Source: a virus
IMG/VR virus record: IMGVR_UViG_3300047462_000760
Coordinates: 1-26,126 of that record
Reading direction: 5' to 3' (one strand)
DNA: 26,126 nt
Positions 3,973-26,126 of the stretch are shown piece after piece (the stretch's first letter is position 1; every line of letters begins with the position of its first letter). The notes beneath the pieces are model-generated. The model had not been told where the DNA came from and did no database searches. It worked only from the letters and a program-made list of their open reading frames with translations. The translations under genes and the position numbers were made by a program.

Positions 3973-4258
3973 TTTCCTTTAGCCCCCGACTTGCGCGACC
4001 ATATACAGCCTTTGCTTTTAGTTTGTAGGTTTCTGGATCAACTGGATCCTGTCCTCCCCACATAGGAATGAAGTGCGATATCTTCGCTTTACGATTTCGC
4101 GCTGCTGCCCATGCCACAAGAGCAGCATGGTAATCACTTACGGGTGTTCCACTGGGTTCTATCTGCTCAAAAGCAATGCGATCCTCTAGCTGCCGTTGCG
4201 TCATTACATCCAATAGATGATCTGGGTGAACAACGCCTATTACATTGCATATCCTCAT
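3965..4258 (-). CDS. Tail assembly chaperone, T-like frame (probably made as a G-T frameshift product)
   Basis: Residues 21-52 (TQRQLEDRIAFEQIEP followed by DYHAALVAWAAAR) fit the lambda gpT-type tail assembly family, in which a short helical domain binds the tape measure. The ATG at 4258 has no Shine-Dalgarno. The same frame is open upstream without a stop through position 4315, across a run of nine A on the minus strand inside the preceding G-like gene. This frame is -1 relative to that gene. The natural reading is therefore a G-T fusion of about 218 residues (105 from G, 16 linker, 97 from this frame), as in lambda and many siphophages. Independent initiation is less likely. It ends 8 bases inside the tape measure start. 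Confidence 0.85.
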   Translation of the reverse strand: MRICNVIGVVHPDHLLDVMTQRQLEDRIAFEQIEPSGTPVSDYHAALVAWAAARNRKAKISHFIPMWGGQDPVDPETYKLKAKAVYGRASRGLKENG

Positions 4259-6938: not shown

Positions 6939-6974
6939 ATAAGGAGTCTGGGTGATTAGACCCAGACTCCTTAT
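6939..6974 (-). terminator. 14-bp perfect hairpin after the capsid gene
   Basis: Arms at 6939-6952 and 6961-6974 pair perfectly, with an 8-nt loop. They lie 8 bases downstream of the capsid stop and 15 bases before the connector start. On the minus strand the stem is followed by CTGTTTAAGG, a poor T tract. It may be a leaky terminator or an mRNA-stabilising structure that raises capsid mRNA relative to downstream genes. Confidence 0.6.
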
Positions 6975-16202: not shown

Positions 16203-16580
16203 TTATTTTTCGCAAGCATAGAACGTCTGTGGCGCGGTTTCTACAATATCTAGCCCGTCGAGCGCCAAAGTCACTTTTGAATAGGAACAGGATTCAAACT
16301 CGCTAGTGTGAATGAGTTGGTACGTGTTTTCATTATACTGAAAATAGTAGCGGTACTGGGTGGTGCCATAGTGACCTGTCGATGTCATCTCTCCTAAAAT
16401 TAAATCGCAATCAAACATCTCCTTTACCATCGCGGTGGAGATATTTCCAATGCAATCGCTAAAGATACGTTTAATGGAATCTTTCCAAGTCGAATGCCGG
16501 CATTCGCTTGCTAAGATGTGTCCGACTTTGGTAGGTATTACTTGATATTGATAAGCTTCGCAAAATGTGCTTTTATTCAT
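16203..16580 (-). CDS. Hypothetical protein
   Basis: A 125-residue protein starting with ATG behind AGGTGA. It is Cys-rich (Cys at about 8, 28, 43, 58, 97 and 123) and Tyr-rich, with a segment TQYRYYFQYNENTYQLIH near 74-91 that looks like a beta hairpin. No signal peptide, membrane helix or named family is visible. It is preceded by a 186-base structured leader that carries a terminator-like hairpin only about 11 bases before its start, so its expression may be attenuated. Function unknown. Confidence 0.7.
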   Translation of the reverse strand: MNKSTFCEAYQYQVIPTKVGHILASECRHSTWKDSIKRIFSDCIGNISTAMVKEMFDCDLILGEMTSTGHYGTTQYRYYFQYNENTYQLIHTSEFESCSYSKVTLALDGLDIVETAPQTFYACEK

Positions 16581-16766
16581 TTCTCACCTATATAAAATGA
16601 GCCACCGCACTGATAACTTGGTGGCTCGGACCCTGATACGGGTGAGTAAATAGATAGTCTGTTTGAACCGTTTGAACCGTATCAGTAGATGGACGTTATC
16701 AGCGTCATATATGGTGTCGTCCGGATTACCCTTTAGTCCTCAGTCATGCACATCCATCAGTGACAA
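16581..16766 (-). promoter_or_regulatory. Structured leader with mutually exclusive stems (possible attenuator)
   Basis: On the minus strand, in order: CTGATAAC (16702-16695), CTGATACGG (16685-16677), CCGTATCAG (16641-16633), then a hairpin GAGCCACC/GGTGGCTC (16627-16620 with 16606-16599) whose loop holds GTTATCAG (16617-16610). The loop sequence is complementary to the first element, which itself sits in the loop of a GACG/CGTC hairpin. The last hairpin is followed by ATTTTATAT. A tandem GTTTGAACC also occurs near 16660-16680. This is read directly from sequence; the regulatory role is inferred. Confidence 0.5.
16590..16627 (-). terminator. Terminator-like hairpin before the 16203-16580 gene
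   Basis: An 8-bp stem GAGCCACC/GGTGGCTC (arms 16620-16627 and 16599-16606) with a 13-nt loop. On the minus strand it is followed by ATTTTATATA. It lies between two same-strand genes and very near the second start, so it is either a terminator for the upstream gene or an attenuator. Confidence 0.55.
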
Positions 16767-17210
16767 TTAGATACCTTTAAGCCAATGTGAAATAGTTGAT
16801 ATGATAGCAGCGATGCAAGCTACGATGGTTGTTCTCATTAACCATTTTCTACTAACGGTTGCCTGTTCTAATCGATCAAGTCGAACAATGATACCTTTTT
16901 CGGGAGTGCCATTCCCGGTAAGCAGTTTATTGAGATGGTCAATCTTTTCGTCTGTTTCGTTATGCTTAAGTTTTACTTCACCGATTGCCTGGCTTAGTTT
17001 GGAAATTTCAAGAAACAGATTATCGCGGTCGATTTGATTCACTCTTTGTAGTTCGCGGGCATAATCTGGTAATCCTCTATTTGTCGCGTCCAAGCTGCTT
17101 GGACAGATTGACGGCGCAGGCAGTTGCTGTGACCTCACCAGATGCGTTCCTGTCGATTCTGGCGAGTCCAAACCCAGAATAGGTACTACGACAGGGGTTG
17201 TATCGTTCAA
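16767..17210 (-). CDS. Coiled-coil protein with C-terminal membrane anchor (XhlA-like?)
   Basis: A 147-residue protein. A Pro-rich N-terminal region (1-45) is followed by a long heptad-like coil (about 50-118, with GTPEKGIIVRLDRLEQ) and one hydrophobic helix at 124-142 (LMRTTIVACIAAIISTISHWL), then a basic end. Proteins with a coil plus a C-terminal anchor of this size occur in phage lysis cassettes (XhlA type), but no endolysin lies nearby, so the role is unproven. The start is TTG with a poor ribosome site. The frame is the same as the upstream gene and stays open back to that gene's TAA, so the real start may differ. Confidence 0.65.
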   Translation of the reverse strand: MNDTTPVVVPILGLDSPESTGTHLVRSQQLPAPSICPSSLDATNRGLPDYARELQRVNQIDRDNLFLEISKLSQAIGEVKLKHNETDEKIDHLNKLLTGNGTPEKGIIVRLDRLEQATVSRKWLMRTTIVACIAAIISTISHWLKGI

Positions 17211-18840: not shown

Positions 18841-18867
18841 TTGCGATTACTTTTTAACCGCGATAAA
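18841..18867. repeat. 27-nt repeat, copy 1 (downstream of methylase)
   Basis: Matches 21301-21327 in the same orientation at 24 of 27 positions, including a 15-nt identical core (CTTTTTAACCGCGAT). It lies 3 bases beyond the methylase stop. With copy 2 it brackets the three early genes. Plus-strand reading resembles a promoter (TTGCGA, 17 nt, TAAACA). Confidence 0.6.
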
Positions 18868-20643: not shown

Positions 20644-20686
20644 AAGGCTAATAGGTAGTCGTTTATGGAGACTACCTATTAGCCTT
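20644..20686 (-). terminator. 17-bp perfect hairpin in the early operon
   Basis: Arms 20644-20660 and 20670-20686 are perfectly complementary with a 9-nt loop. On the minus strand the stem is followed by TCTATTTAG, a weak T tract. It begins 10 bases after the coiled-coil gene stop and ends 28 bases before the ATPase start. It may be a partial terminator, an RNase III site or an mRNA stabiliser. Confidence 0.65.
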
Positions 20687-21300: not shown

Positions 21301-21327
21301 TTGCGAGTGCTTTTTAACCGCGATGAA
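21301..21327. repeat. 27-nt repeat, copy 2 (upstream of the early operon)
   Basis: Near-identical to 18841-18867 and in the same orientation. It overlaps the 3' arm of an inverted repeat (GCACTCGC 21279-21286 with GCGAGTGC 21303-21310, followed by TTTTT on the plus strand). Read on the plus strand it also resembles a promoter (TTGCGA, 17 nt, TGAAAT) pointing at the helix-turn-helix gene. Confidence 0.6.
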
Positions 21328-23130: not shown

Positions 23131-23388
23131 TTATAGAATGCTACCGTTCCCTGGTTTTCGGTTAAGTACGTTTCTCGGCGTATCCGACCACTCTTCTTTG
23201 CCATTATCATCAAGACCGCAGTAGCGTTCTTCTTCACCATCAGCATTAATTCGATGAATTTTTAACTGAGGTAGATTTTTGAAATCATTCAACTCTTGTC
23301 GATGTCTTTTCGCTCCCGCAAGTGATTTGAACGTTCTATTGTCTATCCGCTCACCGTTGATAAGCGTTACAAAGTGTTTAAGGCTCAT
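23131..23388 (-). CDS. Small hypothetical protein
   Basis: An 85-residue, mostly charged protein with a good AGGAG site 7 nt before ATG. The N-terminal strand LKHFVTLINGERI is followed by a basic helix SLAGAKRHRQELNDF, a strand QLKIHRINADGEEERYCGL, and an acidic then polar end. No family is recognised. It is the last of a minus-strand set of small genes, separated from the next by a terminator. Confidence 0.65.
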   Translation of the reverse strand: MSLKHFVTLINGERIDNRTFKSLAGAKRHRQELNDFKNLPQLKIHRINADGEEERYCGLDDNGKEEWSDTPRNVLNRKPGNGSIL

Positions 23389-24849: not shown

Positions 24850-26126
24850 TGCTTATGAATAGCATCGCAAGCGGGTTTGACGATCAATGGGTTTGCCAAA
24901 ATATAACTATCCGCCATTCCGCTAGAATGCCCCACCAGCAGATTTACAATCGGTAATGAGACGTTTGCAGCTACAGCTTGAGTAAATGCACCATCTCGCA
25001 AATGGGAAGCTGTAACAGCAATCTGGCAGTTGCTTTCTTTCTCTGCTTTCTTGACCAAACTTCGGAAGCGATTGAAAGCTCCATCTTTTTCCAATGGATT
25101 CCCTTTAGCTGCTCCACCACTCGCGGTGAAAATATATTGTCCCTTCCGCGGAATTTCATTCAATGCTGAAATGGTTTCTTCCCACAAAACAGCAACCCGT
25201 ACAAACTCGCCCGTTTTCTTTCTTCTGCTTATCATTGTGCCATTTGGTTTAATATCATCCCACTTGATATTAATAACCTCGCCAGCGTAAAGAGCAGCAT
25301 TAAGCATTAACAACATCATTGCCTTATCTTCGCCAGTTGCGACTTTCAATAAATCGTTCCAGTCAGCAAGGGTAATGGGTTTGGGATCGATATTCTTTGT
25401 GGATTCATTTGGTTGCATTATGCGAAGATATTCAAGAGCTTTTGAGGATGCCGAAACAGCTAATGCGCGTTGTACTGCAAAGCTCAACATGCGACGGATG
25501 CCACTAAAAATATGCTGCTGCTGCTTGCCGGATAATTCGCGGTCGAAAACATTATCTTGAAAATCGACGCATACTTTCGCGGTTATCTGTCCAATGTGCT
25601 GAATATTCGTAACGCTTATGAAATCTTCCCATGCTCTACTGACTTTCTTTTTCTGCCCCTTGCTGCATTTGGCGTGAGCTTCCCATAGCTTAAGCAGTTC
25701 ATCGGCAGTAGGTAGAGCTTCCGGCGGTTTGAGGTCGGTAAGGTATCCGAGCTTTTCAAACCCTGTTTTTTCAGCAAGCCATGCCGGGCGCGTGAGCAAG
25801 TCGCTAATCAATCTGTCAATGTACTCTTGCTCGTTCTGCTCTTTCTTCTGCTGCCCCAGTTCAACCATCATGCCCCACGGTGTTTTTTCTTGAATGAAGT
25901 TTTCACCGTCGAATACTGTTTTAACTGTCGGATCACCCTTGCCAATTTTATTATAGAATGTTGCTATCGCTTTTTCTTCATTTGGCTCGGTGAACATTTC
26001 GCCAGTTGAGATGATTACCCAGCGCCCATCGTTCTTTCGCCTGCGGAGTCCATTGATTCTTTTTCCGTTGGCAAGTTCGTATGGTTTTTCTTTGCGTCCG
26101 CGACGTGGTTTGTTGTTGTTTTCCAT
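24825..26126 (-). CDS. Tyrosine integrase/recombinase (atypical active site)
   Basis: A 433-residue phage-integrase-family protein. The N-terminal region (1-80) is basic and includes a KRINGLRRRKNDGRWVI strand pair. A helical core-binding domain (about 140-235) follows, then the catalytic domain. In the first catalytic box, LNAALYAGEVINIKW (276-289), Tyr280 stands where most members have Arg. Lys303/304 could be the beta-hairpin Lys. The second box is SHLRDGAF with His375 and Arg377. The third is VGH at 398-400 and the nucleophile is probably Tyr408 (ADSYIL). It would integrate or excise the phage. The ATG is the last base group of the window, so a start further upstream is possible. Confidence 0.88.
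   Translation of the reverse strand: MENNNKPRRGRKEKPYELANGKRINGLRRRKNDGRWVIISTGEMFTEPNEEKAIATFYNKIGKGDPTVKTVFDGENFIQEKTPWGMMVELGQQKKEQNEQEYIDRLISDLLTRPAWLAEKTGFEKLGYLTDLKPPEALPTADELLKLWEAHAKCSKGQKKKVSRAWEDFISVTNIQHIGQITAKVCVDFQDNVFDRELSGKQQQHIFSGIRRMLSFAVQRALAVSASSKALEYLRIMQPNESTKNIDPKPITLADWNDLLKVATGEDKAMMLLMLNAALYAGEVINIKWDDIKPNGTMISRRKKTGEFVRVAVLWEETISALNEIPRKGQYIFTASGGAAKGNPLEKDGAFNRFRSLVKKAEKESNCQIAVTASHLRDGAFTQAVAANVSLPIVNLLVGHSSGMADSYILANPLIVKPACDAIHKHYFPVKKA

Follow-up and report, generated by a model that had tools for sequence, protein, structure and literature searches.

A candidate translational control element with competing RNA stems in the leader of an orphan phage gene

The leader and its genomic context

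Does the 186-nt leader of an orphan phage gene, in which four related sequence elements can pair with one another, control that gene, and would such control act on transcription or on translation? The window in which this question arises, i.e., the whole stretch of DNA analysed here, comprises the 26,126 bases of a virus record from a temperate phage with integrase, terminase, portal and capsid genes. The integrase is found at one end of the record and minus-strand head and tail genes extend to the other, while the terminase and capsid match known phages at low identity only. Position 1 of the record falls exactly on a stop codon and position 26,126 exactly on the integrase start codon, which looks like a provirus that was cut back to its gene boundaries; attachment sites and genes further out may therefore be absent.

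The leader (16581-16766, minus strand) separates two minus-strand genes. Upstream lies a gene with weak similarity to the hemolysin/holin-associated XhlA (16767-17210; phrog_1193, E 2.7e-4), and downstream a gene for a 125-aa protein with six cysteines (16203-16580), which starts with ATG at 16580-16578 behind the Shine-Dalgarno sequence AGGTGAG (16583-16589, minus strand). Codon usage marks the 125-aa ORF as coding, as this frame scores best and is typical of the phage. Searches of Pfam, PHROG and the PDB gave no match for the protein, and its single-sequence structure model (pLDDT 41) is too poor for use. We also looked for a leader peptide, and no minus-strand ORF of at least 20 aa lies within the leader.

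Regulation by this leader is a prediction from a single sequence. The reading that we put forward, with a probability of roughly 0.4, is cis-acting control of translation by the leader, in which the start would be locked in a 75-nt hairpin and a stem named P2 would provide the open alternative.

Four related elements can form nested pairs

The sequence-only reading had described four related elements on the minus strand, and all four are present at the positions it gave. Element e1 (CTGATAAC, 16702-16695) sits in a 7-nt loop closed by the 4-bp stem GACG/CGTC (hairpin 16706-16692), and e2 (CTGATACGG, 16685-16677) is the 5' arm of P2. The 3' arm of P2 is e3 (CCGTATCAG, 16641-16633), which doubles as a segment of the 5' arm in the occlusion hairpin described below, and e4 (GTTATCAG, 16617-16610) lies in the 13-nt loop of a tip hairpin. 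As had been claimed, e1 and e4 are complementary (8 bp) and e4 is in a hairpin loop. The other complementary pair is e2 with e3 (9 bp). Because the order of the elements nests one pairing within the other, e1/e4 and e2/e3 do not compete with each other as had been proposed; the e1-e4 pairing clashes only topologically with the tip hairpin.

Of 3000 dinucleotide shuffles of the leader, 5 contained at least three perfect inverted repeats with a length of 8 bp or more, 3 contained two such repeats that form a crossing pair, and none combined three repeats of this kind with a crossing pair. Along the minus strand, a crossing pair occurs in 3 of 837 windows, all three of which overlap the leader. 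This repeat statistic was picked after the sequence had been seen. The hexamer CTGATA has 30 copies across the phage, and it is one of five hexamers in the window with four copies inside about 100 nt.

CTGATA is common to all four elements, as would be expected if they were half-sites (CTGATA-AAC/CGG) of a DNA operator, arranged as two inverted pairs for a phage regulator, with RNA pairing being incidental. Inverted sites yield identical inverted repeats by themselves, and the leader region also contains a 13-nt direct repeat in three copies; a tandem CGGTTCAAA CGGTTCAAA (16661-16678, minus strand), which starts at the end of e2, could provide extra, putative binding sites. Such an operator cluster is a serious rival, albeit an unlikely one. 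The spacings of the elements (23, 47 and 17 nt) are out of helical phase, no flank is conserved past the hexamer, and the extensions agree pairwise (AAC/AAC and CGG/CGG), as pairing would need. Nor is a sigma-70-like promoter listed in the leader, although this consensus may not suit the host. On the pairwise extensions and the absent helical phasing, we lean towards RNA pairing over an operator.

A predicted hairpin would occlude the start of the 125-aa gene

The tip hairpin (GAGCCACC-13 nt-GGTGGCTC; 16599-16627, minus strand) has two perfectly paired 8-bp arms (16627-16620 and 16606-16599). In the predicted fold it is the end of a longer structure that the sequence-only reading had overlooked, an imperfect 75-nt hairpin (16578-16652, minus strand; -27.4 kcal/mol) that holds both the Shine-Dalgarno sequence and the AUG. 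This occlusion hairpin consists of the helices UAUUU/AAAUG, CUCACC/GGUGAG, GUAU/AUAU and AGGGU/AUUUU plus the tip hairpin. CUCACC (16646-16641), whose last base is common to e3, pairs with GGUGAG of the Shine-Dalgarno sequence, UAUUU pairs with AAAUG at the start codon, and GUAU and AGGGU pair with the AU-rich tail. None of 1000 shuffles of the 75-nt stretch was equally stable (z -4.6). In predicted folding, the Shine-Dalgarno sequence is paired with a probability of 0.75-0.99 after transcription of the start codon. Among 31 gene starts folded with 100 nt of upstream sequence, this one shows the lowest mean probability of being unpaired (0.12). It is probable that the leader RNA can adopt a long hairpin in which the start signals are hidden, in competition with another stem; hiding a start in this way is a well-known means of postponing protein synthesis.

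That other stem is P2. As e2/e3 shares nucleotides with the 5' arm of the occlusion hairpin, the two stems are mutually exclusive. Equilibrium folding of growing transcripts gave P2 a probability of 0.94-0.99 just before synthesis of the Shine-Dalgarno sequence for three of four 5' ends; for the 5' end at 16706, P2 was weak at this point (0.24), after formation of the tip hairpin. Once the AUG had been transcribed, the probability of P2 dropped to 0.05-0.13 for all four 5' ends. When the leader was shuffled with the Shine-Dalgarno sequence and the gene kept, 9 of 1000 sequences were as occluded and 38 of 1000 had as many switching pairs, while none of the 1000 combined the two. The earlier proposal of a leader with competing structures is in this respect partly supported by folding, with a different opponent, since it is the long Shine-Dalgarno/AUG hairpin that e2/e3 opposes.

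Several results speak against a special role of this fold. Opening the start region costs an ordinary 7.4 kcal/mol, which ranks sixth among 31 starts and is low when a shorter context is used. One of the 29 other gene starts, at 4258, is as occluded and has more switching pairs (15 versus 9); as it matches in a like-for-like native control, the combination has a frequency of about 1 in 30 in this phage. Moreover, folding z-scores as extreme or more so are found in about 56 of 4342 windows. All measures of occlusion and switching were chosen after the sequence had been seen. The folding evidence is suggestive, without being decisive.

These controls also bear on whether the leader simply combines chance repeats with an ordinary intergenic hairpin and has no regulatory role. 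We consider this rather unlikely. Folded as a whole, the leader is not unusually stable (z -0.77), start occlusion of a similar order is found elsewhere in the phage and other loci have stronger folding z-scores, all of which would fit chance, but the repeat configuration of the elements did not arise in 3000 shuffles and is unique on the minus strand.

Control of translation is a better reading than control of termination

The sequence-only reading had likened the tip hairpin to a terminator. Its tail is ATTTTATAT, directly followed by the Shine-Dalgarno sequence, so what follows the stem is a poor U-tract and then the gene's own Shine-Dalgarno sequence and AUG; the tail ATTTTATATAGG is not the U-tract of an intrinsic terminator. 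The hairpin is also unlisted in the terminator scan, in which its 13-nt loop exceeds the loop limit of 8. We regard it as improbable that the leader is a transcription attenuator, in which the 8-bp hairpin would terminate transcription and e1/e4 pairing would prevent this. ATTTTATAT does come right after the tip hairpin, and just after transcription of e4 the e1/e4 pairing is favoured with two of the four e1-containing 5' ends (0.82 and 0.99). Nevertheless, the completed tip hairpin wins in all models (0.91-1.00, with nested e1/e4 at 0.06 or less), and the weak U-tract, the 13-nt loop and a Shine-Dalgarno sequence less than 10 nt from the stem all argue against termination. As the rival of e2/e3 is a hairpin that hides the Shine-Dalgarno sequence and AUG, and as the poor U-tract runs into the Shine-Dalgarno sequence, translational control is the better reading.

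From these predicted structures we infer an effect on translation, as well as any trigger and any e1-e4 loop contact. Once the transcript is complete, the 75-nt hairpin (16652-16578) would lock up the region where translation of the 125-aa gene is initiated. P2 would form earlier in transcription and later be displaced by the occlusion hairpin; where P2 held, possibly with the aid of a contact between the e1 and e4 loops, the start would be less occluded. Long read-through transcripts would then be translated at a low level. Translation would be higher if P2 were stabilised by a protein, a ligand or a coupled ribosome, or if transcripts started inside the leader.

A contact between e1 and e4 is geometrically conceivable, as each lies in a hairpin loop. 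The pseudoknot that had been suggested for this pair is in keeping with the complementarity between the 7-nt loop of e1 and the loop that holds e4, yet the isolated duplex is weak (about -5 to -8 kcal/mol). A riboregulator in which the loop-loop contact holds the transient e2/e3 stem and so decides whether the start codon of the orphan gene opens is a long shot. Pairing of e1/e4 and e2/e3 at the same time would give a two-stem aptamer with a 9 x 15 internal loop, as in an orphan riboswitch with the Shine-Dalgarno hairpin as its expression platform. This nested fold can form and excludes the tip hairpin, but the free fold is more stable by about 5 kcal/mol, no Rfam class matches and the orphan gene offers no metabolic hint, which makes a riboswitch the least likely of the readings considered.

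Comparison with known RNA elements

No Rfam covariance model matched the leader above its gathering threshold, which agrees with the earlier statement that no known class is recognised. Two sub-threshold matches in a permissive Rfam search, to RAGATH-25 (14.7 of 49 bits) and, on the plus strand, to a TPP-like model (12.7 of 54.3 bits, E 3.6), were taken as chance.

Transcription attenuators are built from terminator and antiterminator stems that exclude each other. The leader resembles them in its mutually exclusive stems and differs in its poor U-tract and in that the competing helix holds the Shine-Dalgarno sequence and AUG. In mechanism, the nearest known cases are the phage T4 genes e (lysozyme), soc, 49 and I-TevI, in whose long early transcripts an RNA helix sequesters the Shine-Dalgarno sequence and/or AUG (PMC3014915). 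The likeness is one of mechanism only: here too, a phage gene has its Shine-Dalgarno sequence and start codon in a stable leader helix of a read-through transcript, in this case by prediction. Unlike in the T4 genes, there is an extra competing stem, a possible loop contact and a gene without assigned function. The gene e-type switch is defined by a late promoter within the 5' arm, which yields transcripts that lack this arm (PMC3014915). No promoter of the sigma-70-like type, to which the scan was confined, is listed inside the 5' arm of the occlusion hairpin. The T4 gene 32 leader contains a pseudoknot and mediates translational autocontrol (PMC3014915); our leader likewise has a possible pseudoknot ahead of a phage start codon, but differs in having just the complementarity of two loops and no known autoregulator. 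If real, the leader would add to the cases in which phages time a gene by keeping its start codon hidden in RNA; the competing stem and possible kissing loops would be unusual features, and the gene, which adjoins the likely lysis region, would be worth testing.

Search for relatives

Neither the 125-aa protein nor the leader had a relative in scans of IMG/VR, GenBank phages and about 85,000 species genomes of bacteria and archaea; these scans rely on short exact peptide or DNA matches or on recognisable protein similarity, and distant relatives may escape them. The protein queries were the 125-aa gene, the XhlA-like gene, the DNA methylase, the terminase, the capsid and a tail gene. Together, the protein and DNA-pattern searches retrieved distant capsid and tail relatives only, plus one 6-kb contig with an identical terminase that ends before it reaches the leader. 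The contig with the nearest capsid relative (56%) is short and, starting within the capsid gene, also falls short of the leader region. DNA-pattern scans revealed no second copy of the leader architecture, and none of the 42 matches to the half-pattern CTGATAAC..CTGATACGG had the corresponding right arms in the DNA examined. Weak Hymenobacter matches to the 125-aa protein were dismissed as chance; the one that was checked is the housekeeping enzyme PdxA.

Other structures in the record

A more convincing attenuator-like structure is found 1.5 kb upstream of the leader (18325-18163, minus strand), in an 880-nt stretch nearly without ORFs. It contains a canonical intrinsic terminator (GAAAAAAGCACCC / GGGTGCTTTTTTC) and an upstream CTGGTAG/CTACCAG stem, and has a z-score of -5.2 when 166 nt are folded. 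A more stable upstream fold is predicted to capture the 5' arm of the terminator fully, which would be an antiterminator-like alternative. A weak promoter-like site lies close by (18357-18329), and no Rfam family matched this structure above threshold. It may be an attenuator, the leader terminator of a late operon or a small RNA.

The most extreme folding window of the record is an intergenic perfect 17-bp inverted repeat with a 9-nt loop (20644-20686), probably a terminator or a protein site. Another perfect inverted repeat, of 15 bp with a 6-nt loop (6939-6974), lies immediately downstream of the capsid gene and is probably a terminator or a processing hairpin. Finally, a 27-nt element (TTGCGATTACTTTTTAACCGCGATAAA), possibly a regulatory site, occurs at 18841-18867, 21301-21327 and 23249-23275, with the recurrences at 89% and 70% identity.
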